From NCBI RefSeq assembly GCF_000017165.1, contig NC_009634.1, positions 248,001 to 312,000 on the forward strand: DNA of 64,000 bases. Reading direction: 5' to 3'. The position numbers and the translations under genes are program-made. The DNA comes from Methanococcus vannielii SB (lineage in GTDB: Archaea; AGJL01; Methanococci; Methanococcales; Methanococcaceae). Shown here piece after piece: positions 10,085-30,610 of the stretch (positions are counted from its first letter, which is position 1; each line of letters begins with the position of its first letter). The notes beneath the pieces were generated by a model. That model was not told the DNA's origin and made no database searches. It saw only the letters and a list, made by a program, of their open reading frames with translations.

Positions 10085-11713
<1,629 letters not shown>

Positions 11714-11980
11714 TTATTCAATAAACGCTAAAACGTCTTCAATTTTTATTATAATGTATTTTTGGTTATCTTCATTGAATTCTGTTCCAGAATATTTTGA
11801 AAATACTATTTTTTGACCAATTTTAAAATCTTTTACTTTTTCACTATCTGAAACAGCAACTATTGTACCAATATTTGATTTTTCCTTCGAAGAGTTTGGA
11901 ATAATAATTCCGCCTGCTGTCTTTTCTTCAATTTCTATGGGTTTTACCAATATTCTTTCACCGTATGGTTTCAATGCCAT
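11714..11980 (-). CDS. groES: co-chaperonin GroES
   Basis: The 88-residue protein begins MALKPYGERILVKPIEIEE and continues KTAGGIIIPNSSKEKSN, the GroES mobile-loop region, then GTIVAVS and VLAFIE at the end; this is the complete Hsp10 fold. It caps the GroEL chamber. A strong AGGAGG at 11990-11995 fixes the ATG at 11980. The order groES-groEL with an 18-base gap is the usual bacterial operon. A TATA box sits upstream at about 12036-12045. Confidence 0.93.
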   Translation of the reverse strand: MALKPYGERILVKPIEIEEKTAGGIIIPNSSKEKSNIGTIVAVSDSEKVKDFKIGQKIVFSKYSGTEFNEDNQKYIIIKIEDVLAFIE

Positions 11981-12035
11981 TTTTAAAAACCTCCTAGATA
12001 TTGTCAAGTTTTCATATGTATTGATAATGAATATA

Positions 12036-12127: not shown

Positions 12128-12355
12128 ACGGGATTTATTCAAAATTCAACTAAACAACCCCTCTTGAAAGATTAGATTAGAAATTAAAAAGGATTAATTA
12201 ATCGAATATCCGAAAAGAGAGTAAATACTGCCAAATTCTTTAAATAAATTCGCTTTTTTACTATTAAATCGACATTAAAAGAAGACTTTTTATATATTCA
12301 TTAAAATAATAGATTTTAAGATTTAATAAGGGGAATACTTTTGGGGACTTAAAAA

Positions 12356-13868
12356 ATGCTGCCTATCCCAATATCTCAATTACTTGAAACTAATTTAATC
12401 GAAGAAGAACGGTTAGAATTAAAACGGGGATTTAATCCAGAGGATGTTATGCATACAATGTGTGCATTTGCAAATGATTTTAACAATTGGGGCGGCGGAT
12501 ATATTATAATCGGGATTCACGACAAAACAAAAGAAGTTATCGGAGTAAATCCTTCTGAAATTGATACTATTTTGAAAAAAATGATTGGTTTATCCAATAA
12601 AATCCATTATCCATATTTTCCAGTAGTAGAACCCATAATTTACAAAAATAAGACAGTATTGGTTATAGCCTGCCCTGGAGGTCCTGCAAGACCATATAAG
12701 GCACCAACAAGTCTCGGTAAAAATTCAGAATATAAATATTACATCAGGCGAAACTCATCAACTGTTATCGCAAAACATGAAGATGAAAAAGAATTAATTG
12801 GAATGTCTAATCAAATTCCATATGATGATCAGATAAACCATAAAGCGTCAATTAATGATTTAAATTTACATTTAATTAAACAATATTTAAAAGAAATAAA
12901 TTCTAATCTTGATCCAGAAATTTTGAAATTTGAAGAGTTATGTAAAAGCCTAAATATCGTAGATGGGCCAAAAGAATATTTGAAACCAAAAAACATTGGT
13001 TTACTGCTTTTTTTCAACAAATCCTAAAAAATTCATCAAAACACCGTGGATTGAAGTTACTGTATTTTACGATGAAATTGGCGATAAATTTGATGAAGAT
13101 GTGTTTGATGGAGATTTGGTTTCACAGATACGGCTTTCACTAAATTATATAAAAAGCATAGCAATTCGTGAAAGAGTTCAAAAAATCCCGGGAATCGCAG
13201 AATCAAAACGAATTTATTCTTATCCCTTTGAAGCAATTGAAGAAGCACTCGTAAACGCAGTATATCATAAAAGTTACGAAATCGATGCACCAATTGAAAT
13301 TAGAATTGAAACGGATCGAATTGATATAATAAGTTATCCGGGACCACTTCCACCACTAAATAAATATAATCTTAATGATGATATTGTTATTTCTAAAAGG
13401 TATAGAAATAGGCGAATTGGTGACTTTTTAAAAGAATTTAAACTTACAGAAGGTAAAAATACAGGTTTTAGGAAGATAAGACATGCTTTAAAAAACAATG
13501 GATCCCCGGAACCTGAATTTATAACTGATGATGAAAGAACACAATTTATCGCCCGGCTAAGAATTCATCCAGAATTTATTGAGGATATAAAAAAGACCCA
13601 AGCTAAGACCCAAGTCAAGACCCAAGTCAAGACCCGGGCTGAAGATGAAATACTACTCGTAGTAAAAGATATTGAAATGTCGAGTTCGGAAATATTGTCT
13701 GAAATAGGGTTGAAGTCTAGAACTAAACGATTCAAACAGGCAATTTCAAATTTATTGGAAAATAACTTAATTGAATTAACAATTCCTGATAAAATAACAA
13801 GTTCAAAACAAAAATATCGAATTACTAAAAAAGGTTTAAAATTATTGAATGATCTATCAAATGGATAA
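12356..13868 (+). pseudogene. AlbA_2/Schlafen-type ATP-binding protein, split by a frameshift
   Basis: Two overlapping frames (12356-13027 and 12996-13868) make one protein of about 504 residues. The first half has the AlbA_2/Schlafen domain (ERLELKRGF, then FANDFNNWGGGYIIIGIHD). The second half continues with SYPFEAIEEALVNAVYHKSYE, as in the ATPase C-terminal domain that follows AlbA_2, then a winged-helix end. The break lies in a run of seven T at 13008-13014: with six T the reading goes GLLLFSTNPKKFI without interruption. A 12-bp repeat encodes KTQAKTQVKTQVKT near 13600-13640. A TATA-like TTTTTATATA lies at 12287-12296. It may be a pseudogene, a phase-variable gene or a sequencing slip. 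Confidence 0.75.
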
Positions 13869-13943
13869 TTAATTTATAAATTTTCACAAGGAATAATCGT
13901 TTGAATTAAGGGCTCATTCAGTCTAAACTTAAAATTTAACTAA

Positions 13944-13954
13944 AATATATTTAT
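13944..13954 (+). promoter_or_regulatory. TATA box upstream of the tandem-pseudoknot RNA
   Basis: ATATATTTATA at 13944-13954 lies about 40 bases before the 12-bp terminal stem that opens at 13989. This fits transcription starting near 13975-13985, just outside the structured element. Confidence 0.5.
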
Positions 13955-13988
13955 AGTTTCAAAACAAGTCTATACTTGTACATAACTA

Positions 13989-14104
13989 GTGATATCCAGC
14001 ATTCTGTCGGTAACCCGTAATCCGACTAATAAAATGCGGGCCGGATCTTTCTGTCGGTAACCCGTAATCCGACTAATAAAATGCGGGTCGGAGCTGGATA
14101 TCAC
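13989..14104 (+). ncRNA. structured RNA with two tandem pseudoknot-like repeats; likely type III antitoxin RNA
   Basis: Two 44-base units repeat with a period of 47 (14002-14045 and 14049-14092), differing at only one base. In each, GTCGG pairs with CCGAC, and the loop CCCG can pair with CGGG further downstream, which is an H-type pseudoknot. The pair is enclosed by a perfect 12-bp inverted repeat (13989-14000, GTGATATCCAGC, with 14093-14104). The element is much richer in GC than its surroundings, has a TATA box upstream and lies 26 bases before a broken small gene on the same strand. Promoter, tandem pseudoknot repeats and toxin gene in this order is the layout of type III toxin-antitoxin loci (ToxIN, CptIN, TenpIN), in which the RNA itself neutralises the endoribonuclease. 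The pairing was worked out by eye. Confidence 0.6.
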
Positions 14105-14130
14105 AACATATTTACTAATCAGGATAAATC

Positions 14131-14597
14131 ATGATAGTATCAGAAAACTATTTTTATACCGTTAAAGACGAGTTTTTCACAGATTATAAAAATTTTCTAA
14201 ATTGTCAGTTTATGGACAATAAATTAGAATGTAGGCCTTTTTACTATCCGTTGAAGATAAAAAAACAGGATTACCTTGGTTAATTCCGTTATCTACTAAA
14301 ATCAAAACATATGAACCTAAGATAGAACGTTAAGTGGAAAAAAGAGGGTTTTGTGACGGATATCACATTATACGAAATAAAGATGGTTCAATATATAAAA
14401 TAGGTGGTCAAGAGGGCGTTTTTTTAATTTTAAAAATGTTTCCCATAACAAAAAAATATTTGAAAGAAAACTATTATTTTAATACTGTTCCACAAAGACT
14501 CGTATCCGAGAATCATATCAAACTAATAGATAAAAAATGCAACATCGTAATGATTTTCCACCAACCAACTGTTTGCAAAATCTATAACAGCCAGTGA
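14131..14597 (+). pseudogene. degenerate ToxN/CptN-like type III toxin gene
   Basis: An ATG at 14131 opens a frame giving MIVSENYFYTVKDEFF and RPFYYPLKIKK, then hits a stop at 14281. A run of seven A near 14259-14265 with one base missing restores the frame: it continues LPWLIPLSTKIKTYEPKIER, meets an in-frame TAA at 14331, and goes on with FCDGYHII, FLILKMFPITKKY and LIDKKCNIV to 14597. The order (RPxxxxL, IPLSxK near the middle, CD, then MFPI) resembles endoribonuclease toxins of type III systems, especially those I remember from CptIN-type loci in Firmicutes. It lies directly behind the tandem-pseudoknot RNA. One frameshift plus one nonsense codon mean no functional toxin. The family assignment is from memory and not certain. 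Confidence 0.55.
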
Positions 14598-14747: not shown

Positions 14748-17700
14748 GAGTTTATGTCTGTTCTAATGCATTATGCTCTTTTACCCATTAAGGAAGTTGC
14801 ACAGGCTGTCGACTCAATAGGTTTCAATGCTTGTTCTAATGCATTATGCTCTTTTACCCAATGAAGCAAGTACTAATGAGTCGTATTATACAAGTTTCAA
14901 TGCTTGTTCTAATGCATTATGCTCTTTTACCTATCTAATATCCTATTATGTAATGGCTCGCACTCGTGTTTCAATGCTTGTTCTAATGCATTATGCTCTT
15001 TTACCAGAATCGTAAGTACCTAAATTTATAGTTCCATCAGTTTCAATGCTTGTTCTAATGCATTATGCTCTTTTACTGTTACGCCGTTTGCGGTTCCAAA
15101 ATCAGATATTTGTTTCAATGCTTGTTCTAATGCATTATGCTCTTTTACTTCTATAGGTGTTCGTTGAAAGTTCCGTAATGTCTGGTTTCAATGCTTGTTC
15201 TAATGCATTATGCTCTTTTACTGTCTTTTTTTCCTTGTTTCAACTGAAAGAGATACGTTTCAATGCTTGTTCTAATGCATTATGCTCTTTTACTACAATT
15301 CAGAGAACTGGTGCTTCGGGTAAGATACCGTTTCAATGCTTGTTCTAATGCATTATGCTCTTTTACCTGGCCAGGCTTATGCTATGCATATGGAGAATAT
15401 CCGAATGTTTCAATGCTTGTTCTAATGCATTATGCTCTTTTACTCCGACGATACCGGAAAAATCCAATGTATCGGCTTGTTTCAATGCTTGTTCTAATGC
15501 ATTATGCTCTTTTACCTGGAAAACACCTACTGTTAATCCTGCAAGTATGAATGTTTCAATGCTTGTTCTAATGCATTATGCTCTTTTACTTCATTGTCAA
15601 CTACTTCTGCGATTCCCAAATCAGGTTTCAATGCTTGTTCTAATGCATTATGCTCTTTTACTTTATTCTACCCCAACTATTACTATAACTAGCAGAGGTT
15701 TCAATGCTTGTTCTAATGCATTATGCTCTTTTACTACGTGATGTAGTACGTGTCTGCTGCAGCGATGAATAAGTTTCAATGCTTGTTCTAATGCATTATG
15801 CTCTTTTACTTGTTGATGCAATTCCTGCCATTGACGTTCCGTGTTTCAATGCTTGTTCTAATGCATTATGCTCTTTTACCTGCTCCAAGCATGATTACTG
15901 CTACTGCGATGATTGGGTTTCAATGCTTGTTCTAATGCATTATGCTCTTTTACGTTTCTATGTGTTGGGTTGTGCCATTGTTGTAATGGTTTCAATGCTT
16001 GTTCTAATGCATTATGCTCTTTTACACCGATAATGTTTTGTACTCCTTCAACATTTTCTCTATAGTTTCAATGCTTGTTCTAATGCATTATGCTCTTTTA
16101 CTCCAGAATTGATAAACGGTATACATTAAAAACCATTAGTTTCAATGCTTGTTCTAATGCATTATGCTCTTTTACTCAATTCTTTGTCAAGATGAAATTA
16201 AAAGATTATTATACGTTTCAATGCTTGTTCTAATGCATTATGCTCTTTTACTATAGTTCTATTTTTAACACACTTTAAAAAGTGTGAGTTTCAATGCTTG
16301 TTCTAATGCATTATGCTCTTTTACTTGGAACCGGATTTTATAAATTATATGATATTAGTTTCAATGCTTGTTCTAATGCATTATGCTCTTTTACAGTTTC
16401 ATCCATCTCTTTTTGGTATATTTTCATAATTATGTTTCAATGCTTGTTCTAATGCATTATGCTCTTTTACGTTCGATATGAGGGGAACCAATCTCAAGTG
16501 TGGGATGTGTTTCAATGCTTGTTCTAATGCATTATGCTCTTTTACTCTTAAAAGATAAAGGATATGATAAAAGGGATGATAGTTTCAATGCTTGTTCTAA
16601 TGCATTATGCTCTTTTACAATCAGTAAATCAGTATCGAATATTAAGGGTTTTGGTTTCAATGCTTGTTCTAATGCATTATGCTCTTTTACTTTGTAGTTG
16701 CTATACTATCCCTCTGTTTTATTTCGTTTCAATGCTTGTTCTAATGCATTATGCTCTTTTACTCTGTCAATGTTTCTACTTCCGCTTTAAAATCAATAGT
16801 TTCAATGCTTGTTCTAATGCATTATGCTCTTTTACCATAAATTAATTTCTTCATTGGTTAGAATGCCCTCGTGTTTCAATGCTTGTTCTAATGCATTATG
16901 CTCTTTTACCAGTGAAAATCCATATGAATTGGCACAGTACTTCATGTTTCAATGCTTGTTCTAATGCATTATGCTCTTTTACTACTCCTTCAACATTCTC
17001 TCGATATAAGTCATCTTTGTTTCAATGCTTGTTCTAATGCATTATGCTCTTTTACGATACAGTCTTCACACATTGCACCACTTTCAAGTGTTGTGTTTCA
17101 ATGCTTGTTCTAATGCATTATGCTCTTTTACACCACTCCAAAAAAGATAATGATTATTTGATAATTATGTTTCAATGCTTGTTCTAATGCATTATGCTCT
17201 TTTACAAATATCACATAGGAATAATTTTACCTCCGTAGCGATGTTTCAATGCTTGTTCTAATGCATTATGCTCTTTTACAGACGAAAGATCAGTTATTCA
17301 ACTGATTTTCCACGCAGGTTTCAATGCTTGTTCTAATGCATTATGCTCTTTTACCCTTCATGTTTTTCCATTTCTTTTATTGTGAAGTGTTTCAATGCTT
17401 GTTCTAATGCATTATGCTCTTTTACTGAATCAACGTATCCTGTATCAATTTTGAGTTTAAGTTTCAATGCTTGTTCTAATGCATTATGCTCTTTTACAGT
17501 TAATTGCTGTAATTTAAACGAGTTTTTCCTTGTGTTTCAATGCTTGTTCTAATGCATTATGCTCTTTTACAAGAATAATGCAATGGCAAACATCACAGAT
17601 GAGAAATGTTTCAATGCTTGTTCTAATGCATTATGCTCTTTTACATCGAATAGTAGTTTTTTTCCGAAGTACTCACTTGGGTTTCAATGCTTGTTCTAAT

Positions 17701-20700
17701 GCATTATGCTCTTTTACAGTTCAAAAAGCAATGGCAAGAAAGAATTACAAAGCGTGTTTCAATGCTTGTTCTAATGCATTATGCTCTTTTACTCAGACAA
17801 ACTATGCCTTAACTGTCTTTTTCAGACATGTTTCAATGCTTGTTCTAATGCATTATGCTCTTTTACCTGAACTTCTAGTTCTTGAAAATCTACATATTCG
17901 GAGTTTCAATGCTTGTTCTAATGCATTATGCTCTTTTACTTATCGGTTCAAAGTGTAACTGTTGAAGCAGGATAGTTTCAATGCTTGTTCTAATGCATTA
18001 TGCTCTTTTACATGCCCCTTCAGTAATCTCGAATGCAAATCTTTCGACACGTTTCAATGCTTGTTCTAATGCATTATGCTCTTTTACATTTGGCCGTACT
18101 CAGTATATATAATATCTGAGTCGTGTTTCAATGCTTGTTCTAATGCATTATGCTCTTTTACCTATTTATGCAAAATAAAGATAAAAAGTTTAAAGCCATG
18201 TTTCAATGCTTGTTCTAATGCATTATGCTCTTTTACTTTTCATGTTGATCCCTCAATTAAAGTTTTCTTTATGTTTCAATGCTTGTTCTAATGCATTATG
18301 CTCTTTTACCTTAAAAGATAAAGGATATGATAAAAGGGACTACAGTTTCAATGCTTGTTCTAATGCATTATGCTCTTTTACTACTATTTAGTATCCCTTA
18401 AAAAACTAGTATCATATGACTGTTTCAATGCTTGTTCTAATGCATTATGCTCTTTTACAAATATTACAGAAGCTCAGCACATAGAATCCATATGTTTCAA
18501 TGCTTGTTCTAATGCATTATGCTCTTTTACTACCAAGATATTATTTGCACAGTAGGTAACCGGAAAAGTTTCAATGCTTGTTCTAATGCATTATGCTCTT
18601 TTACTCTATATCTTTTGCTAAAATATTAATTTGATATGCTCGTTTCAATGCTTGTTCTAATGCATTATGCTCTTTTACAACAAACCTAGAGGGTGCAGAC
18701 CTTAGGGGGGCTGACTGTTTCAATGCTTGTTCTAATGCATTATGCTCTTTTACTATTTTACAATTTATAATATGTGAATATTACTATAGTTTCAATGCTT
18801 GTTCTAATGCATTATGCTCTTTTACTTTTTCACAATTTAGCAATATTTATTAAAGTTTTCTTGTTTCAATGCTTGTTCTAATGCATTATGCTCTTTTACA
18901 GAAGAGGAGCTAGAGATGGTGACTCAACCGTTATTCTGTTTCAATGCTTGTTCTAATGCATTATGCTCTTTTACTTTACTTATTATTGATTGAAAGGGGG
19001 CGATAATGACGTTTCAATGCTTGTTCTAATGCATTATGCTCTTTTACCCTATTTTAATTGTAGTTAAAAAATCAATTAAAATGTTTCAATGCTTGTTCTA
19101 ATGCATTATGCTCTTTTACAGATGTGGAAATGGTAGAAATTATTGAAGAAGAAGCGTTTCAATGCTTGTTCTAATGCATTATGCTCTTTTACCCAACTCG
19201 GCTGTTGCTTACTATGGGAAAAAAGTTAGTTTCAATGCTTGTTCTAATGCATTATGCTCTTTTACACGATAACGAGACTGTTGAAGTAGACCCAACTCTT
19301 GGTTTCAATGCTTGTTCTAATGCATTATGCTCTTTTACCTTTGTTCGATTGTTACAGGTCCATAGTTTTTTTTAGTTTCAATGCTTGTTCTAATGCATTA
19401 TGCTCTTTTACAATTATTCACACGACATAATAGACCAATAATTTGTGTTTCAATGCTTGTTCTAATGCATTATGCTCTTTTACCTCAGATTTTTCAAATT
19501 TTTTCGAGGTATGGTATTATAGTTTCAATGCTTGTTCTAATGCATTATGCTCTTTTACAATCGATTATTCAGAACTAATACGTTCTCTATATAGTTTCAA
19601 TGCTTGTTCTAATGCATTATGCTCTTTTACTCGTTGTTTGTGAGTTCTTGCATAATATAACACCTTGTTTCAATGCTTGTTCTAATGCATTATGCTCTTT
19701 TACTTTTGAATATGGTAAAAACATGTCTTAATTATGATGATAGTTTCAATGCTTGTTCTAATGCATTATGCTCTTTTACAAGATCACCGGGTCGGGACCC
19801 AGATTTATCTTAAGTTTCAATGCTTGTTCTAATGCATTATGCTCTTTTACATTTAACAAAAATAGTGAGAACATGAACGATATTGAGTTTCAATGCTTGT
19901 TCTAATGCATTATGCTCTTTTACTGATTCTAATTCACCATTATGTAAGCTACCGGATTCGTTTCAATGCTTGTTCTAATGCATTATGCTCTTTTACTCCA
20001 ATTCCTGAAGGTCATGATCTGGATCAGGACTTGAGTTTCAATGCTTGTTCTAATGCATTATGCTCTTTTACTAGATCACTATGCTGGAAAAAAAGCAACT
20101 GAAATAATGTTTCAATGCTTGTTCTAATGCATTATGCTCTTTTACTTGAAAAAATACTTACTGAATTGTCGATTAATGGTGAAATGTTTCAATGCTTGTT
20201 CTAATGCATTATGCTCTTTTACACTGTAAGGAATTCTGATAAATTTATTCATTCCAGCAGTTTCAATGCTTGTTCTAATGCATTATGCTCTTTTACATCA
20301 CTAATCTCGTCGACAACCACACATTTTAAGTTGTTTCAATGCTTGTTCTAATGCATTATGCTCTTTTACATTGACTCTTTTAATTTGATTTCAGGTGCTA
20401 AGTCAATACGGTTTCAATGCTTGTTCTAATGCATTATGCTCTTTTACTTCTATTATTGTTTTTTCGTCGTTAGGATTTCGTCTGTTTCAATGCTTGTTCT
20501 AATGCATTATGCTCTTTTACCCAAAATGTTTTTTTACGATATCTCTAATTGAGTTTCAATGCTTGTTCTAATGCATTATGCTCTTTTACCGCTTTTAATT
20601 TATATGGTGAAAACAATTTTAAATTGTTTCAATGCTTGTTCTAATGCATTATGCTCTTTTACATTATTTTATAATAATATATTATCTATTATACTAGTTT

Positions 20701-22115
20701 CAATGCTTGTTCTAATGCATTATGCTCTTTTACAAAAACAATTCGATAAAATACATTATGAAATAATAAGGTTTCAATGCTTGTTCTAATGCATTATGCT
20801 CTTTTACTACTAAAAGATAAAGGATATGATAAAAGGGATTACAGTTTCAATGCTTGTTCTAATGCATTATGCTCTTTTACATCACTTTTTTATTATTTCT
20901 ATTTTCGATAGAATATTGTTTCAATGCTTGTTCTAATGCATTATGCTCTTTTACTACTACAAAGGATAGAAGACTATTATATAATTGAAGTTTCAATGCT
21001 TGTTCTAATGCATTATGCTCTTTTACAGTGAGAATACATAAAAACAATCAAAAAGAAGGGAGTTTCAATGCTTGTTCTAATGCATTATGCTCTTTTACTT
21101 CATTGTCAACTACTTCTGCGATTCCCAAATCAGGTTTCAATGCTTGTTCTAATGCATTATGCTCTTTTACTTTATTCTACCCCAACTATTACTATAACTA
21201 GCAGAGGTTTCAATGCTTGTTCTAATGCATTATGCTCTTTTACAGTGAGAATACATAAAAACAATCAAAAAGAAGGGAGTTTCAATGCTTGTTCTAATGC
21301 ATTATGCTCTTTTACTTGTTGATGCAATTCCTGCCATTGACGTTCCGTGTTTCAATGCTTGTTCTAATGCATTATGCTCTTTTACCTGCTCCAAGCATGA
21401 TTACTGCTACTGCGATGATTGGGTTTCAATGCTTGTTCTAATGCATTATGCTCTTTTACGTTGTATGTGATGCCTTCCCCTCCCGACTGAACGTGTTTCA
21501 ATGCTTGTTCTAATGCATTATGCTCTTTTACCGATATATAATATTATATTATAATATCGGGTCAAAAGTTTCAATGCTTGTTCTAATGCATTATGCTCTT
21601 TTACTATCCTGTCTTTGTATTTCATTTGTTGAATTAATACGTTTCAATGCTTGTTCTAATGCATTATGCTCTTTTACTTTCAATTTTTGCATTTTCTTCA
21701 AGATAGTTAATGGTTTCAATGCTTGTTCTAATGCATTATGCTCTTTTACATTACTTACTATATATAGTTATCTACACTAAGTAGTTTCAATGCTTGTTCT
21801 AATGCATTATGCTCTTTTACGGCCGAAAAATTTAACTTTTAATAACTGCATATCTGTTTCAATGCTTGTTCTAATGCATTATGCTCTTTTACGAAACGAT
21901 TGGAGTTAATATGTAAGATTTTGAGTATGTTTCAATGCTTGTTCTAATGCATTATGCTCTTTTACACAGGTAATCAAAAGTAATTTGGGGGCAACTGCGT
22001 TATACGTTTCAATGCTTGTTCTAATGCATTATGCTCTTTTACGACTATTTTTTTATAAAAGCATAACTATATATATGAGTTTCAATGCTTGTTCTAATGC
22101 ATTATGCTCTTTTAC
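14748..22115 (-). CRISPR. type I-B CRISPR array, about 101 repeats
   Basis: A 37-bp repeat (plus strand: GTTTCAATGC at the start, CTCTTTTAC at the end) occurs about 101 times by hand count, with unique spacers mostly of 33-39 bp. The repeats look identical except the one at 14748-14784, which has about seven mismatches in its first 13 bases; such decay marks the leader-distal end. The transcript therefore runs on the minus strand from the AT-rich leader at 22116-22467, next to cas4. In that direction the repeat ends ATTGAAAC, the 8-nt tag I recall for crRNAs made by M. maripaludis Cas6b. A central TAATGCATTA palindrome gives a small stem. A spacer block near 15590-15916 recurs at 21099-21422. 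Confidence 0.97.
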
Positions 22116-22467: not shown

Positions 22468-23097
22468 TTATTTTACACAAATATTTTTATAACAACAATC
22501 AATACATTTTAATTTATTTGACGCTGATTTTGGGTAATGTCCAGACATTACTTTTTTAAACTCCTCTAAATATTTATTCAGCTTATTTATTTCTTTTATA
22601 TTCACTTCTATTTCTTTTAAGACATTTTTTCCACGACAATATAATATATATCCTTGTGTAACTTCTGCATTAAAAGTTTCAGCTATCATTAAAGAGTACA
22701 TTATAGTTTGCATTTTATATGTTTTATATATTATGTCATTGTACTCAGCAAATTTGTAATCGAGTGAAGCCATGGTTCCGTTTGAAAGTGTTAAAACTTC
22801 ATCGGCAATCCCTTTAATACCATAGTTTTTCGAAACCATTGAAACGTTTATTTTTTTGTCAACCACGTTTATTTTTTTACGTAAGTAGTTCGCATTTTCT
22901 AACTCCTTTTTTTCATGAATTGTTCTACCCTTTAAAACTTTGTACCGTTTTTCTTCATGCTGGCTTATTCCCAAATAATTCATAAAGTAGGTATATCGTT
23001 TACAATACAAAAATTCAAGCATTTCTGAAGGAGTTATGTAATATTCATTTTCATTGAATCCTTCAAAATTATTAAAAGAATTTTGAGACGATTTCAT
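22468..23097 (-). CDS. cas4: CRISPR-associated exonuclease Cas4
   Basis: Cas4 is a RecB-family nuclease with an iron-sulfur cluster that trims prespacers and helps choose PAM and orientation during adaptation. The 209-residue protein has ITPSEMLEFLYCKRYTYF at the N-terminus (first cluster cysteine), the RecB-like nuclease core with GIADEV and SLDYKF, and the C-terminal cysteines CIDCCYKNIC. I chose the ATG at 23097, which overlaps the end of cas2 by 26 bases; a longer start at 23130 is possible, but its extra residues (MAKRLIKSWYL) do not look like the family. It is the last gene of cas1-cas2-cas4, next to the leader. Confidence 0.92.
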   Translation of the reverse strand: MKSSQNSFNNFEGFNENEYYITPSEMLEFLYCKRYTYFMNYLGISQHEEKRYKVLKGRTIHEKKELENANYLRKKINVVDKKINVSMVSKNYGIKGIADEVLTLSNGTMASLDYKFAEYNDIIYKTYKMQTIMYSLMIAETFNAEVTQGYILYCRGKNVLKEIEVNIKEINKLNKYLEEFKKVMSGHYPKSASNKLKCIDCCYKNICVK

Positions 23098-23362
23098 CAG
23101 ATACCAACTCTTTATCAAACGCTTGGCCAATTAATCCTGCTTTATTTAATTCATCTTTACTCATTGGAAATACATAGATTGAATCAATATCTAAATTAAT
23201 AGTATCCTCTAAGATAATTTTTAATTCATCAAGAGCATTGCTATTTACGTCCCCTAAAAATACGCTTTTTTGAACGCGGTATAATCCATAGTTTAAACAT
23301 GTCTTTGAAACTTTGCTTCTTATTTTATCATCTGAAATATCGTAAATTACCCATAAAAGCAT
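23072..23362 (-). CDS. cas2: CRISPR-associated protein Cas2
   Basis: Cas2 is the small ferredoxin-like dimer at the centre of the Cas1-Cas2 spacer-integration complex. The 96-residue protein begins MLLWVIYDISDDKIRSKV, where the conserved Asp follows the first strand, then has GLYRVQKSVFLGDV and DSIYVFPM. I chose the ATG at 23362 because GGTGAT lies directly upstream; an ATG four codons earlier is within that ribosome binding site region. It starts 4 bases after the end of cas1 and overlaps cas4. Confidence 0.95.
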   Translation of the reverse strand: MLLWVIYDISDDKIRSKVSKTCLNYGLYRVQKSVFLGDVNSNALDELKIILEDTINLDIDSIYVFPMSKDELNKAGLIGQAFDKELVSDEIVSKFF

Positions 23363-23366
23363 ATGA

Positions 23367-24347
23367 TCACCCATTTAAAATCCTGTTTGCAATATTATGG
23401 CATTCTAATTGGATTATATTTTGAATTTCCATATTTTTTCCGCGATATTTTTCCTTACTCTCAATTAATAGGTTGTATTCTGAAATTAACGCTTGTTTTC
23501 CATCTTTTGCTAAATAAAATCCCCCTTCAATTTCTTCAAAAAAGTTATCTTTTATCTTTTTTGTTGAAAACATTTTAAAAATGATTTTGTCAATATATAT
23601 TCGATATTTTTCAATTAAATCAAAAGTAAACGCTTTTCTATTGTAATTATCAACATGCAAAATGCCGATATATGGGTCAAGTCCGGAAATTATACATGAA
23701 CGTTCAATTTGGGAATAAAGTATTCCATAGCCGTAGTTTAACATGCAGTTAAAGTAATCCTCTGCAGGATTTCTACTTCTTTTGTTAAATTGATATTTTT
23801 CAGGTAAACTTTTTGAAATCATTTCAAAATATAGTCTACTTGAATAACCCTCATAACCTTGAATCGTATTTCTTATTTCATCAATATTTTGTTCGAATGT
23901 TAATGAATTTAACTTATTTTTCCTTTCATCCATTTTTAGGATACTTTCATTAATCAAATCTCTTCTTTCATCTCTTCGGTTCATAGCAATTATTTTTAAA
24001 AAATCAGTCTGATTTTCTATTTTTTTAGAAATCCATTCTTTTACAAGTGTTAATCCAAGTTCATTTTCAGAAAGCAAAAGTTGTTTTTTTCTAATTGTGG
24101 AAATACTCCCGTGCTTTGAATGCCAAAATCTACCTACGGGTTTTCCATTCATTTTTAAGAGTACTAAATCAATATTTTCTTCAACTGCCAAGGATATTGC
24201 CTCAGTAGATATGGAAGAAGGGCAAGTAATTAAAATTTGTTCTACCTTTTTTGCAGGGATTTCCTGAACATTTTCGCCATTTTTTAATTTAAAGCGAGTT
24301 CCTGATTTTGATATATATGTTCCAGGGGTGTTGATAATTAGTTTTAT
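23367..24347 (-). CDS. cas1: CRISPR integrase Cas1, apparent AUA start codon
   Basis: Cas1 is the metal-dependent integrase that inserts new spacers. With the start used here the protein has 326 residues, the normal length: N-terminal KLIINTPGTYISKSGTRFKL beta domain, GRFWHSKHGSISTIRKKQLL linking to the helical domain, and NRRDERRDLINESILKM and GYEGYSSRLYFEMI (conserved Glu), NPAEDYFNCMLNYGYGIL, and GLDPYIGILHVDNYNRKAFTFDLIEKYR (conserved His and Asp-Glu-like region). No ATG, GTG or TTG lies in frame at the right place; ATA at 24345-24347 directly follows GGAGGGG with ideal spacing. The next possible start, TTG at 24191, would remove 52 residues including the whole first sheet. Confidence 0.88.
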   Translation of the reverse strand: MKLIINTPGTYISKSGTRFKLKNGENVQEIPAKKVEQILITCPSSISTEAISLAVEENIDLVLLKMNGKPVGRFWHSKHGSISTIRKKQLLLSENELGLTLVKEWISKKIENQTDFLKIIAMNRRDERRDLINESILKMDERKNKLNSLTFEQNIDEIRNTIQGYEGYSSRLYFEMISKSLPEKYQFNKRSRNPAEDYFNCMLNYGYGILYSQIERSCIISGLDPYIGILHVDNYNRKAFTFDLIEKYRIYIDKIIFKMFSTKKIKDNFFEEIEGGFYLAKDGKQALISEYNLLIESKEKYRGKNMEIQNIIQLECHNIANRILNG

Positions 24348-24425
24348 AGTATCCCCTCCAATTAAAACCGATAATATTATATTGTTAAAACTAAATAATA
24401 TATCTTGTTTATACGGGGGTTCAGT
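24348..24425. promoter_or_regulatory. divergent promoter region between cas1 and cas8b
   Basis: The 78 bases between the two cas operons hold the cas1 ribosome binding site (GGAGGGG read on the minus strand) and the cas8b one (GGGGG at 24415-24419). The AT-rich middle (TAATATTATATTG, AATAATATATC) can supply TATA boxes for both directions. Confidence 0.55.
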
Positions 24426-26105
24426 ATGATAGATATTATTTCAAACATTGGAAAATTTTCAAGAAATAATCATGGTGAAAAAGAACTAATAGATATTTGG
24501 CAAAAACCGGAAAAAGATTTTGATTCAATTTTAGAAGTTGATATTGACACAAAAAATAACAGCATCAATGTCATATCTAAAGAATTTGATAAACGTGTTT
24601 TTCGGGATTCGTTATTTTATCAAGTTGGAAACGGGCACGTTGGTTCACTCGTTAAAATAGAGAAATTTAAAGATGATCAAAAAGTCATTGAAAAAATTAA
24701 CAAAAAAATAGAGAGTTCATTGAAGTTTTTAAGCATAAAAACTGAATTTGTGAAAAACATATCCGAAAAAGTTTTTGAAAAAGTAAGAATAGCACCTTCA
24801 AAGGCATATATTGTTAGTTTTTTAAAAGATGGAAAAAAACCCATAGATCTTTTTTTAGATAAATTTAACAATGAAATAGAAAAGACGTACTTAAATAAAA
24901 CTAAATTTACTAAAGAGTGCCACATATGTGGTAAATCTGAAATTATATATGATACAGCCATTTATAATTGTTATACTAACGATAAAGAGATTTATTCAAA
25001 TACTAAAGGTTTCTCATTTGGTATTTGTAAAGAGTGTCTTTTAAATATACTTCACGGGCGTGATTATACGAGAGATTATCTATCTACATATTGGGCAGAT
25101 AGTGAAGTAATGATTTTGCCACATAACTACGATAACGATATCGACGAAATTTTTAAGGGCGAAAATATCGGTTCAACACATTCAGAATCAAAACTTATAA
25201 ACAAACTCAAATCAGCCGAAGAAGAAATATTTGAAGAATTCGGAAGACTTAATGAACCTGTAGATATAGTTTTTTTTGAAGATCCAAAAGCAAGTTCTGA
25301 ATGGAAAATAATTTACCATATACGAGGAATTTTACCTTCTCGATTTAAATTAATATCTGATTTAGAGAAAAAATATTCTTCAGAAAATCATAATTTTAGA
25401 CTTAGGGATATTTTGAACATTTTAGCAGGGGGAACTTCTTCAAACGAATCGAAAAGACTTTTAAATATGATATTTCATGGTAAAAAATACAGTAGAAGTC
25501 TTTTTTTTAATAAAGTACTTAAAAGCTACCAAAAAAATCATTTTAGTCAGAAAAAAATACCTGACTGGAGGTTTATGGCCAATATTCATTCCGTTTATAA
25601 TTTTTTGGTAGATTGCAACTGTTTGAATAAAGGTTGGAATTTTAAATCAAAAAATAATGGGGGAGGTTATGAAATGACAGTATATGCTACAATAGACGAA
25701 TTTTTTGAAAAAAATAATGAATTTTTTGATACAAACCAAAAGAAAGCATGGTTTTTAATTGGAAATGTTTATTCAAGCTTGATTTATTATTCAAAAAAAT
25801 ATCATGATTCGAATGTATCTTACCTTGAAAAAAACTTCTTTTTTGGTAAAAAATATGATTATAAAACATTTATTTACTTTACAAATAAGTGTTCTGACCT
25901 AATTATTAAATATAAAAGTGGAGGGGCATTAAATTCAGGATATTCTTTAAATTCACTACTTATAATGGCTAAAGAATATATTGGTACGGGAAAAAATTTA
26001 CCTACTGCTGATGAAGCCAAATATATATTTTTTTGGGGTATGCAACAACGTATTGGTAAAAAAGAAAAAAATGAAGATACATTAACCAATGAGGGTGAAC
26101 AATAA
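24426..26105 (+). CDS. cas8b: type I-B Cascade large subunit Cas8b (Csh1-like)
   Basis: The 559-residue protein is the large subunit of the type I-B interference complex, expected to recognise the PAM and position the complex for Cas3. Family evidence: location directly before cas7-cas5-cas3, length, and a zinc-finger-like module of two CxxC pairs, ECHICGKSE (about residues 166-174) and GICKECLLNILHGRDY (about 204-219), typical of Cas8b/Csh1. The rest diverges fast, as in all Cas8 proteins. GGGGG at 24415-24419 fixes the ATG at 24426. Its stop overlaps the ATG of cas7 (TAATG). Confidence 0.85.
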   Translation: MIDIISNIGKFSRNNHGEKELIDIWQKPEKDFDSILEVDIDTKNNSINVISKEFDKRVFRDSLFYQVGNGHVGSLVKIEKFKDDQKVIEKINKKIESSLKFLSIKTEFVKNISEKVFEKVRIAPSKAYIVSFLKDGKKPIDLFLDKFNNEIEKTYLNKTKFTKECHICGKSEIIYDTAIYNCYTNDKEIYSNTKGFSFGICKECLLNILHGRDYTRDYLSTYWADSEVMILPHNYDNDIDEIFKGENIGSTHSESKLINKLKSAEEEIFEEFGRLNEPVDIVFFEDPKASSEWKIIYHIRGILPSRFKLISDLEKKYSSENHNFRLRDILNILAGGTSSNESKRLLNMIFHGKKYSRSLFFNKVLKSYQKNHFSQKKIPDWRFMANIHSVYNFLVDCNCLNKGWNFKSKNNGGGYEMTVYATIDEFFEKNNEFFDTNQKKAWFLIGNVYSSLIYYSKKYHDSNVSYLEKNFFFGKKYDYKTFIYFTNKCSDLIIKYKSGGALNSGYSLNSLLIMAKEYIGTGKNLPTADEAKYIFFWGMQQRIGKKEKNEDTLTNEGEQ

Positions 26106-26980
26106 TGGTAAATTCAAGAGAATTTTTATTAATATGGGATAGTACAATGGCAAATCCAAATGGTGATATGTTAAATGATAATAAACCAAGACAGGATGAA
26201 GCCACAGGGCAACTTGAGGTTTCTGATGTTAGGATAAAAAGATTTATTCGTGACCACTGGATTTCGAATGGAAAAAATGTGCTTGTACAGACAAAAACTG
26301 ACAAAAATGGAAAAGTAATGACTTGTCAAGGAATTGTTAAAGAAATGGCATCAGAAAATAACTTAAAAGACGAAGAAATTCCAAATTATCTTTTGGAAAA
26401 GTATATCGATGTAAAACTGTTTGGTGCAGTAATTACAAAGCCAAAATATGATATCACAGGCCCCCTTCAAATTGCATGGAGCAAATCCGTTCACGAAGCA
26501 GATGTAAAATTCATGCAAGGAAATGCAGCATATGCAAGTGGCGAAGGAAAAGATCAGGCATCCATATGGTCTAAATTTATTTCACCTTACGCACTTTTTA
26601 AAACATATGCAGTCTACAATGACAAAGTTGCAGAAAAACAAGGAATAAATGTTTCAGATGATGATTTAAACGATTTTAAAGATGCATTACTTAATGGACT
26701 GAAAAATTACCGGAGTACCTCAAAAAATCAGATGCCTAGACTGTTAATTGAAGTAATTTATAATAATAACAAGTTAGATGGGGAATTAAATTACGTTGAT
26801 ATTACTTATGAAAATCAGGACCTTGAATTAAGGGATATTTCGCAAGTTGTTATTAATTTGGGTAAACTTTCAGAATATGCTCTTGAAAAGTCAGCAAGTA
26901 TTGAAAAAATTATAATTTATAAACATAAGAATGTTAACTTAATAAATGTGCCAGAAAATGCTGAAGAAAACTTAATTTAA
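26105..26980 (+). CDS. cas7: Cascade backbone subunit Cas7 (Csh2 family)
   Basis: Cas7 forms the helical backbone that coats the crRNA spacer. The 291-residue protein has the Csh2-type N-terminus REFLLIWDSTMANPNGDML and VSDVRIKRFIRDHW, then ITGPLQIAWSKSVHEADV and a segment GNAAYASGEGKDQASIWSKFISPYALF. Its ATG shares a base with the cas8b stop, so the two are translationally coupled; cas5 follows after 9 bases. Length and order are standard for type I-B. Confidence 0.95.
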   Translation: MVNSREFLLIWDSTMANPNGDMLNDNKPRQDEATGQLEVSDVRIKRFIRDHWISNGKNVLVQTKTDKNGKVMTCQGIVKEMASENNLKDEEIPNYLLEKYIDVKLFGAVITKPKYDITGPLQIAWSKSVHEADVKFMQGNAAYASGEGKDQASIWSKFISPYALFKTYAVYNDKVAEKQGINVSDDDLNDFKDALLNGLKNYRSTSKNQMPRLLIEVIYNNNKLDGELNYVDITYENQDLELRDISQVVINLGKLSEYALEKSASIEKIIIYKHKNVNLINVPENAEENLI

Positions 26981-26989
26981 AGGGATATT

Positions 26990-27667
26990 ATGAAATCAGT
27001 AGTTTTTAGTGCTAAAAGTGAATATGGGCGATTTAGAAAGCCATACACAACTACATCAGCACTTACATTTCTATGTATCCATCCTGTTGCAGCAAAAGGA
27101 CTTATCGGGGCTTTGGTGGGAATTGATAAACTAGATCTTTACGAAGAGACTAAAGATTTGAAAATAGGGATAGAAGTACTTGGTGAAATAAACAAAGATT
27201 TACAATCTGTAAAACTATTAAATTTGAAAGAAGGAGTATCTGGTGGAATGTTCCATTTTCCATCAAACATTGAATTTTTAAGGTGCCCTCATTATCGATT
27301 TTATGTTATGTGGAATGAAAATAAATTAAACGAATTAAACGATAAGTTAAATGTTGGGGAATGGGAATTTACCCCGTATTTGGGCGTTAGTGAATCCATT
27401 GCTAAGATGAACTATGAAGGAATGTTCGAAGTTTCAAAAGTGGAAAAAGCAGATTTTGTAAATACAATAATTCCAACAAAAAATATACTTCCAAAAATTA
27501 ATCTCAATACAAAAATGTATTCTGATAAAATACCTGTAAAGAATAATTCAAATCGGGAATATATTGAATATGAAAAAATAGTTTTTGCTGAAAAAAACCC
27601 ATTATTTGGGAAAATCAGCAACACGGATATTTACCAAGTCGGTGAAAGAAATGTCTATTTCTTTTAA
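26990..27667 (+). CDS. cas5: Cascade subunit Cas5 (Cas5h type)
   Basis: Cas5 binds the 5' tag of the crRNA and contacts the large subunit. The 225-residue protein shows the Cas5 start VVFSAKSEYGRFRKPYTTTSALTF, then IHPVAAKGLIGALVG, the first RAMP strand-helix with the glycine-containing turn. The C-terminal half (YEKIVFAEKNPLFGKISN) is family-like. An ATG with AAAGGG just before it starts the gene. The 3' end overlaps the first codons of cas3 by 17 bases. Confidence 0.92.
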   Translation: MKSVVFSAKSEYGRFRKPYTTTSALTFLCIHPVAAKGLIGALVGIDKLDLYEETKDLKIGIEVLGEINKDLQSVKLLNLKEGVSGGMFHFPSNIEFLRCPHYRFYVMWNENKLNELNDKLNVGEWEFTPYLGVSESIAKMNYEGMFEVSKVEKADFVNTIIPTKNILPKINLNTKMYSDKIPVKNNSNREYIEYEKIVFAEKNPLFGKISNTDIYQVGERNVYFF

Positions 27668-29948
27668 TCTTTTTTCACACCCCGATCAAACTTTAAATGA
27701 CCATTTAACGGGCGTAAGAGATATTGCTTTAAATTTACATAAAAATCACAATGTTAACAAAGATTTAACGGATGTACTTGAAATAATTTGTATGGCACAT
27801 GATTTTGGAAAGGCCACTTCTTTTTTTCAAGACCGGTTAAAAACTGGAAATAAAAGTAAACTTACAGATCATGGGGAAATTTCTGCGTGTTTTGCGTACT
27901 GGTTATTGCCCGAACTTTGGAAAATACCTGGATTTTTGATAGTAAAAAGACATCACGGTAGCATGAAAAATGCAAATGATGAAATATTGCTTAATATTGA
28001 TATTTTAAAAAAACAAGCAAAAAATATCTTAGAAAATAATTTTGAAGAAGTTAATTTAATTTATTCAGAAATGCTTGAAAAAAATTCTAAATACTTAAAC
28101 GATTTTTTTGACTTTTTAAATTCATTAAATGAACGTTCTATAAAAAAACACTTTAGAAAAGAGATTTCTAATATTAAATACGATTTAGAACTTTTTATAA
28201 AAATCCAGTATATCTATTCTATTTTATTAAGTGCAGATAAATCACAGTTAATTTTAAACAAAGCATATCTTCCAAAAGTTACAATACCTTCAGAATATGT
28301 TGAAAAATATAAAGAAGATTTAAAAAAGAAATTTGTGGAAAAAATTGGAAATTTTGAAAATAATATGGTATTTAATATTAGAAACGATGCGTTTAATGAA
28401 TTAAAATATGAACTTGAGGAAGTTGATTTAAACAATAATAAAATTTTTTCAATAAATATGCCAACTGGAACTGGTAAAACAATGCTCGGATACTATTCGG
28501 CATTTAAAATACTTGAAAGGTTAAAAAACGAGCAAAATTTAAATTCTCAAATCATATACTGTCTTCCATATATGAGTATAATTGATCAAAATTATGCGGA
28601 ATTATACAAACTCCTTGAATATAATTTAAATCGGCATCCAAACGATGAGGAACTTTTAAAGTTTCATTCTATGACTGAAATAAAATATAGTGATTTTAAA
28701 GAATATGATGCAAGATTTTGCTTTGAAAACTGGCAGAGTAAGGTTGTAACAACTACGTTTGTACAGTTTTTCAATACAATATTTAAATCTGGAAAAAATT
28801 CCGTTATGCATCGGTTTCATACGCTTTCTAATTCAGTTATTATTCTTGATGAAGTTCAGGCAATTGAAACAAAGTATTTTCCCCTTATAAAGCAGTTTTT
28901 AGAGATATTGTCTAAAAATTATAATGTTTATATAATTTTAATGACTGCAACAATGCCCATACTTCTTGATACTTATGAATTAATACCAAATAATGAAAAA
29001 TACTTTAAAAGTCTAAACCGGATAAAAATAATAAATAATACGTCAAAAAATATTTCTTTAAATGAATATAAAGATATTTTACTTGAAAAAACAATTAAAA
29101 ATTCAGATAAAAGTTTTTTAATAGTAATGAATACTGTAAAGTCTGCAAAAGATGTTTATCAGTATTTAATGAAAGAAACTAATCGAAAATGTATTTATTT
29201 ATCAACAGAGATATATCCAAAATTACGACTCGAAAAAATAAATGAAATAAGAAAAATGAATAAACGTGGTGAAAAACCTGTTGTTGTATCAACACAGCTT
29301 ATAGAAGCAGGAATCGATATTGATATGGATACCGTATATAGGGATTTTTCCACACTTGATTCTATAAATCAAACTGCTGGAAGGGCAAATAGAAATGGTT
29401 TAGGGGAAAAAGGTGAAGTTTATATTTATAATATAATCGATGATAAAAAAAGGCCTTACTGTGGATATATCTATCCACATCATTTATTAGACTGCACAAA
29501 ATCCGTTCTTTTAGAAACTGAAATTAATGAAAAAGAACTTTATGAAGTTAATAATAAATATTTTAAGGAAGTTCAAAACCGTTCTTTAAATGAAATAGGT
29601 GAAAATGTCCAAAAATCAATAAAATCATTAGATTTTAAAACATTTAGGGATAATTTTGAACTTATTAAAAAAGAAGAGTGGAAAAAAGATATTTTTATAA
29701 ATGCAGACAATAATTCTGATGAAATATTAAAAAAACTTGAAAATTCAAAAGATTTTTCTAATTTGGAAATTAAAAATTTGTTTAGAGCGTTAAATAATTA
29801 TAGAATTTCGATAAATACTCAAAAATACGATAAAATAAAAAATAATCTAATATCAGTAGATAAATTCGAGTTAGAATATTTAAATATTGATAATTACTCT
29901 GTGGAAGAGGGCATACTTGATAATCTACAAAACGAAATATTTTTTTAG
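27651..29948 (+). CDS. cas3: CRISPR helicase-nuclease Cas3
   Basis: Cas3 is recruited by Cascade to unwind and shred target DNA. The 765-residue protein carries the HD nuclease first (DHLTGVRDIAL, CMAHDFGKATSFFQ, VKRHHGSMKN) and then the SF2 helicase: Walker A MPTGTGKTMLGYYS, the DEAD-box variant ILDEVQAIE, TATMP, and motifs V-VI VVSTQLIEAGIDIDMD and QTAGRANRNG. Both activities are in one chain, with all key residues present. GGTGAAAG upstream and homology choose the ATG at 27651, overlapping the end of cas5. cas6 follows after 8 bases. Confidence 0.96.
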   Translation: MSISFNLFSHPDQTLNDHLTGVRDIALNLHKNHNVNKDLTDVLEIICMAHDFGKATSFFQDRLKTGNKSKLTDHGEISACFAYWLLPELWKIPGFLIVKRHHGSMKNANDEILLNIDILKKQAKNILENNFEEVNLIYSEMLEKNSKYLNDFFDFLNSLNERSIKKHFRKEISNIKYDLELFIKIQYIYSILLSADKSQLILNKAYLPKVTIPSEYVEKYKEDLKKKFVEKIGNFENNMVFNIRNDAFNELKYELEEVDLNNNKIFSINMPTGTGKTMLGYYSAFKILERLKNEQNLNSQIIYCLPYMSIIDQNYAELYKLLEYNLNRHPNDEELLKFHSMTEIKYSDFKEYDARFCFENWQSKVVTTTFVQFFNTIFKSGKNSVMHRFHTLSNSVIILDEVQAIETKYFPLIKQFLEILSKNYNVYIILMTATMPILLDTYELIPNNEKYFKSLNRIKIINNTSKNISLNEYKDILLEKTIKNSDKSFLIVMNTVKSAKDVYQYLMKETNRKCIYLSTEIYPKLRLEKINEIRKMNKRGEKPVVVSTQLIEAGIDIDMDTVYRDFSTLDSINQTAGRANRNGLGEKGEVYIYNIIDDKKRPYCGYIYPHHLLDCTKSVLLETEINEKELYEVNNKYFKEVQNRSLNEIGENVQKSIKSLDFKTFRDNFELIKKEEWKKDIFINADNNSDEILKKLENSKDFSNLEIKNLFRALNNYRISINTQKYDKIKNNLISVDKFELEYLNIDNYSVEEGILDNLQNEIFF

Positions 29949-29956
29949 GCGATATC

Positions 29957-30610
29957 ATGAAATTAAGCTATTTATCAATTAATTATTATGATTTGAATCT
30001 CCCAATGAGGTATGGTTCAAAAATTAGAGGTTATTTTGCAAATAAATATCCTGAAAGTATTTTGGTTCATAACCACGATAATGAAAAGAGCGTATACAAG
30101 TACCCTTTGATACAGTATAAAATAATCGATAACATTCCAATTATAATTGGCTTAAATGAAGGTTCAAAAGAATTAATACAGAAAGGAATTCTGTTTGAAA
30201 ATTCAATAACTATTGAAGAAACAAAATACAACTTAGATAGAACCGAAATAATTTCAAAAGAAGCTTATTTCGGCACAATTGACAAAATTTTAAAATACCA
30301 ATTTAAAACACCTTGGATGGCATTAAATAAGAAAAATGCAGAAATTTATAAAAAGTTAGATGAAATAGATCGAGAAGAACTTCTTAAAAGAATTTTAATC
30401 GGAAACATTATTTCGATGTCAAAATCACTAGGATATGATATAAAAGAAACATTGAAAATTAAGATAAATTTAAAAGAAATCCCCGTAAAGTTCAAAAATC
30501 AAGAAATGGCGGGGTTTAAGGGGGAATTTTACATTAATTTTGATATTCCCAATTATTTAGGCATTGGAAGAAACGTTTCAAGGGGATTTGGAACGGTTTT
30601 TAAACTTTAA
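29957..30610 (+). CDS. cas6: crRNA endonuclease Cas6b
   Basis: Cas6 cuts the repeat to give crRNAs with an 8-nt 5' tag. The 217-residue RAMP protein has His38 and His40 (ILVHNHD) and Tyr47, the residues I recall as catalytic in the published M. maripaludis C5 Cas6b, and ends in the glycine-rich loop YLGIGRNVSRGFGTVFKL that binds repeat RNA. Its position as the last gene after cas3 differs from many I-B loci, where cas6 comes first. The ATG at 29957 has an AGGCGAT ribosome binding site. Confidence 0.95.
   Translation: MKLSYLSINYYDLNLPMRYGSKIRGYFANKYPESILVHNHDNEKSVYKYPLIQYKIIDNIPIIIGLNEGSKELIQKGILFENSITIEETKYNLDRTEIISKEAYFGTIDKILKYQFKTPWMALNKKNAEIYKKLDEIDREELLKRILIGNIISMSKSLGYDIKETLKIKINLKEIPVKFKNQEMAGFKGEFYINFDIPNYLGIGRNVSRGFGTVFKL

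Follow-up and report, generated by a model that had tools for sequence, protein, structure and literature searches.

Descriptions of type III toxin-antitoxin systems come almost entirely from a small number of bacterial phyla, and one review of these systems mentions Archaea without giving details (PMC5086642). In the CptIN system of Eubacterium rectale (PDB 4RMO; PMC4627078), the toxin gene is preceded by two tandem H-type pseudoknot units of about 45-47 nucleotides (nt) whose second loop is long and rich in A, and published cptIN arrays have a repeat period of 45-47 and 2-2.2 copies (PMC6315513). The published active site of the CptN toxin comprises a serine/serine/arginine triad, Asp81, Ser85 and Tyr104 (PMC4627078). 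In the present study, we analysed a locus at positions 13944-14597 of a 64,000-nt stretch of the Methanococcus vannielii SB genome (the window), for which the original prediction had proposed a ToxN/CptN-like type III module with an intact-looking RNA and a dead toxin. In our view, Methanococcus probably carries here a type III toxin-antitoxin locus of the CptIN family that came from bacteria, decayed, spread after the loss of its toxin and is now likely a relic. Its assignment to CptIN as a decayed archaeal member, and not to ToxIN or TenpIN, is well supported by sequence comparison.

The antitoxin array and its bacterial counterparts

The array is a direct repeat with a period of 47 nt on the plus strand, in which unit 1 (14002-14048) and unit 2 (14049-14095) are identical at 45/47 positions. 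With two units of 47 nt directly upstream of the toxin gene, it lies within the published cptIN range. Each unit is able to form a GC-rich H-type pseudoknot with a first stem (S1) of GTCGG/CCGAC and a second stem (S2) of CCCGT/GCGGG with a closing U-G pair; the core sequence GTCGGTAACCCGTAATCCGACTAATAAAATGCGGG is found at both 14006-14040 and 14053-14087, and its second loop is TAATAAAAT. An equal pseudoknot score was reached by 1/300 shuffles of one unit. In a geometry scan of 210 kb, with both strands counted, the GTCGGTAACCCGTAATCCGACTAATAAAATGCGGG sequence was confined to the known copies, and the other matches were isolated and AT-rich. Both pseudoknots are enclosed by a perfect 12-bp inverted repeat, with the left arm GTGATATCCAGC at 13989-14000 and the right arm GCTGGATATCAC at 14093-14104 of the plus strand, a length that was matched by 6/20,000 shuffled flanks. 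When folded without pseudoknots, the RNA 13975-14118 gave -47.8 kcal/mol (z -4.6), and none of 200 shuffles was as low. Upstream of the array there is a TATA-like promoter element, TATATTTATA (13946-13955, plus strand), which is unchanged in a second species, another Methanococcus (genome G016). The tandem units, the pseudoknots, the enclosing repeat and the TATA box had all been described in the original prediction, and every one of them was borne out. A search of Rfam at gathering or relaxed thresholds gave no family matching the locus. An operator-like palindrome, ACAAGT-CTAT-ACTTGT (13964-13979), was also observed where transcription of the antitoxin RNA is expected to begin, and one of its arms is altered in G016.

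For comparison, bacterial units were taken from upstream of the cptN genes in about 70 bacterial loci, and two viral-contig relatives were included among the relatives examined. The archaeal unit was aligned by MAFFT into the bacterial CptI columns without forcing. Over 13 sequences, S1 and S2 were 97.7% paired with changes on both sides in 8/10 pairs, a level of covariation that none of 500 shuffles reached, and controls with slid partners paired at 49% or less. In this bacterial frame the archaeal row formed 10/10 pairs. The archaeal CptI has drifted in sequence but not in architecture, and in relation to E. rectale its S1 and S2 have changed with compensation. The best 80 of the 135 genome relatives are all bacterial.

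Among plasmid proteins, the best match (34%, E 6e-14) was to the CptN-like loci of Bacillaceae plasmids (Virgibacillus NZ_CP017963 and Peribacillus NZ_CP133764). The Virgibacillus unit reads ATCGC-AAA-CCCAT-TAA-GCGAT-TAATAAAAT-GTGGG, and its whole second loop is identical to that of the archaeal unit. In contrast to the archaeal locus, the toxin of these plasmid loci is intact, their units are dissimilar to each other and a strong Rho-independent terminator precedes the toxin. In L007 and L012, two close relatives, a terminator hairpin of 12 bp with a T-run separates the array from the gene. The archaeal locus differs from that of E. rectale in its archaeal TATA promoter and its 12-bp enclosing stem; the longest enclosing inverted repeat among 69 bacterial and viral loci was 8 bp. 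This 12-bp stem may substitute for a terminator or shield the ends of the RNA. The DNA search of plasmids gave no match to the locus, the phage records held no relatives of it, and the archaeal RNA was not found in viral contigs. Matches to a degenerate loop pattern on four contigs of one phage kind were rejected, as they lay inside unrelated genes.

The broken toxin gene

The cptN gene starts with the ATG at 14131, 26 bases past the repeat, and it carries the frameshift and the stop that had been predicted. Its N-terminal open frame (14131-14283, plus strand; 50 amino acids and a stop) has homology to CptN, and the frame is lost at a run of seven A (14259-14265). The middle segment (14284-14333, plus strand), with the S-T-K catalytic-triad motif IPLSTK, is read in the shifted frame only and is ended by the in-frame TAA at 14331-14333. 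The C-terminal segment, with MFPITKKY (14334-14542, plus strand), is native sequence up to 14542. Beyond this point the open frame continues for 55 bases (14543-14597, plus strand) as a foreign tail unrelated to the toxin C-terminus of a second copy of the locus (copy B, described below); neither this non-native end nor the presence of the whole unit in two copies had been noticed in the original prediction.

Protein queries were built with an X placed at each lesion. The repaired protein matched the NCBIfam CptIN model NF047359 with 80.6 bits (E 1e-22) and the solved CptN toxin of 4RMO with E 6e-16, or 1e-19 when the C-terminus of copy B was used, and the archaeal sequence has all 7 of the residues that do not vary among seven CptN proteins. 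The broken protein was not recognised by Pfam or PADLOC. In the alignment to 4RMO, as we read it, the triad position is occupied by S-T-K and the equivalent of Tyr104 is retained, whereas a glycine stands at the equivalent of Ser85. The original prediction had staked itself on homology of the repaired protein to type III toxins and on the co-occurrence of repeat and gene in related genomes, and both were found, the first in the CptN matches and the second in G016 and in about 70 bacterial loci.

The whole active site could not be encoded in any single product of the broken gene, and the frameshift, the stop and the C-terminal truncation speak against an active endoribonuclease. We therefore regard the toxin gene, as read from its sequence, as dead, and the locus as a decayed CptIN member and not as a working system, unlike that of E. 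rectale.

Copies, neighbourhood and spread

The M. vannielii genome consists of a single contig of 1,720,048 bases, and it contains a 2,367-bp unit with the locus twice. Copy A lies in the window (12176-14542, plus strand) and is identical by blastn at 2367/2367 positions to copy B, on the minus strand at about 110.3-112.7 kb (G000:C1). Copy B has a fuller toxin C-terminus, and therefore it is the window copy that has been truncated, at 14542. A third genomic DNA match (46 bp) was rejected, as it lies in an unrelated place. The unit also holds a gene with SLFN_AlbA_2, HATPase_c_4 and Fic-like_C domains (12356-13868, plus strand), whose frame is shifted by one base in a run of T near 13010. This gene adjoins the RNA and cptN in all three copies, being open in G016 and broken in both M. 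vannielii copies.

The survey covered 36 Methanococcia genomes, and a search at the phylum level gave the same 36; the locus was found in two of them only, M. vannielii and G016. The original prediction had suggested looking for an intact gene behind the same repeats in other Methanococcus genomes; the G016 gene carries the same frameshift and the same stop. The locus of G016 is 98-99% identical to that of M. vannielii, the RNA is identical at 118/118 positions, and promoter and RNA together at 205/206. Over a core stretch of 3.3 kb, identity between the two species is only 79%. Shared lesions at this level of identity, set against that of the core, indicate that loss of the toxin came first and transfer of the dead locus, from one species to the other or from a common source into both, came later. 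The last part of the G016 toxin was lost at a different point than in the window copy. Synteny around the G016 copy yielded no empty site.

Copy A has on one side a gene for a GroEL of bacterial type, accompanied by a probable GroES, and on the other the probable trailer end of an array of clustered regularly interspaced short palindromic repeats (CRISPR). The bacterial-type GroEL (TIGR02348, 826 bits) with its probable GroES, at 10085-12007 of the window, is in itself an observation in an archaeon, and the pair had no long match in four congeners. The CRISPR array of 100 exact repeats and the type I-B cas genes occupy 14821-22115 and 22468-30610 of the window. The reverse complement of the repeat ends in ATTGAAAC, which makes transcription of the array from the minus strand probable, the trailer end then facing the toxin-antitoxin locus. 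Its spacers showed no targeting of the locus beyond short chance matches. Next to copy B there are AriA/AriB-like (PARIS), Fic and PDC-S01-like genes; the AriB-like (DUF4435) and AriA-like ATPase genes at L004:7797-9904 form a PARIS-like defence system. Within the AlbA_2 gene, at about 13595-13640, the two species differ by 48 nt in the number of 12-nt tandem repeats (KTQVKTQV). The interspersed motif TTAATTAATCGAATATCCGAAAA, in which the unit has its left end (12176-12225), is present ahead of unrelated genes at five places in G016 and at one in genome G017, and is perhaps a recombination or regulatory site.

Relic, passenger or antidote

Several observations weigh against the explanation that we favour. 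The score of the broken protein falls short of the curated cutoff of NF047359, which is 90. With a covariance model of bacterial CptI, using S1 only, the archaeal units reached 11.9 bits (E about 2) and rank 4-5 in 64 kb. In the tree, the archaeal row stands on a long, unplaced branch, and therefore the bacterial origin rests on distribution, the nearest sequences to the module lying in plasmids and genomes of Bacillota. A Rho-independent terminator between repeats and toxin is a criterion quoted for type III systems (PMC5086642). None was found in 14085-14145 by a strict scan, which detects one in just 8/70 loci. This absence counts weakly, because the scan is positive in so few loci and because archaea, to our knowledge, do not use this type of terminator.

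From what is known of the family, the RNA would be transcribed from the TATA promoter and would fold into two pseudoknots clamped by the 12-bp stem; a cognate CptN could bind and cut it, and the RNA would inhibit CptN. The module may have entered Methanococcus from bacteria, after which the toxin would have been lost and the dead locus passed between species together with the AlbA_2 gene beside it. At present it would most likely be a relic whose antitoxin could be expressed but would be idle. Compatible with this explanation, not opposed to it, and close to an even chance, is that the AlbA_2/HATPase gene spreads under selection and the dead cptIN is carried along. The constant adjacency of this gene, its open frame in G016, its Fic-like C-terminal domain and its differences (20 synonymous and 12 non-synonymous) are in agreement with such a passage, but its broken state in both M. 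vannielii copies is not. We hold it unlikely that the RNA has been retained to neutralise the CptN of incoming plasmids or elements, so that element loss or toxin exposure would be harmless. Chromosomal type II antitoxins, such as ccd, act as anti-addiction modules and are likewise retained without a working toxin, but they are proteins, whereas the archaeal antidote would be RNA. Such a role is suggested by the unchanged RNA of two species that are so divergent elsewhere and of both M. vannielii copies, while at least four lesions, including two independent truncations, arose in the toxin gene; in M. vannielii both protein genes are broken and the RNA alone is whole, and the copies sit in defence neighbourhoods (type I-B CRISPR-Cas; PARIS-like). 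However, zero changes in 118-143 nt have a probability of 0.27-0.33 at the dead toxin's own rate (0.27 for 143 nt), and of 0.08 for 118 nt at the substitution rate of the AlbA_2 gene. The substitution-count test for selection is thus not significant, and the cross-species divergence is too low for constraint to be separated from recency. The seven invariant CptN residues of the dead toxin, moreover, look as intact as the RNA. Furthermore, CptI antitoxins are highly specific to their own toxin (PMC4627078), no intact cognate CptN was found in the Methanococcia genomes or the phage records, and the two viral-contig relatives are distant. The unchanged RNA is consistent with an antidote and a recent relic alike; as the present state, a relic or a hitchhiker is more likely than an antidote. 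Somewhat more doubtful than the antidote is a mobile RNA-only immunity cassette, that is, a toxin-free antitoxin in which the 12-bp stem replaces the bacterial terminator and which spread between Methanococcus species by protection from incoming CptN.

Two further explanations have very little probability. A living toxin might arise if ribosomes shifted frame at A AAA AAA, which lies in the right phase and is a canonical slippery heptamer for -1 shifts, as the run of seven A reads A_AAA_AAA in frame, the required shift is -1 and the site is conserved in both species. The shifted frame hits the TAA after about two fifths of the protein at most, and two copies lost their C-termini independently; a toxin made in this manner was set aside because this TAA is conserved. 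Slighter still is the chance that the locus guards the adjacent CRISPR-Cas system in the manner of CreTA. A few hundred bases separate the end of copy A from the 100-repeat array with its type I-B cas genes, but the unit is unlike the CRISPR repeat (945/1000 shuffles were as high), this repeat was not found in 12 kb around copy B, and the locus stands at the probable trailer end of the array.

New in this locus, which we continue to read as a decayed CptIN relic, are the duplicated unit, the dead form shared across species, the 12-bp stem without a terminator and the neighbouring defence systems. The present study adds a well-supported archaeal case to the type III systems, in which the RNA is whole, the toxin is dead and there are signs that the dead form moved between species. 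This makes it testable whether an RNA antitoxin can outlive its toxin as a protective gene.
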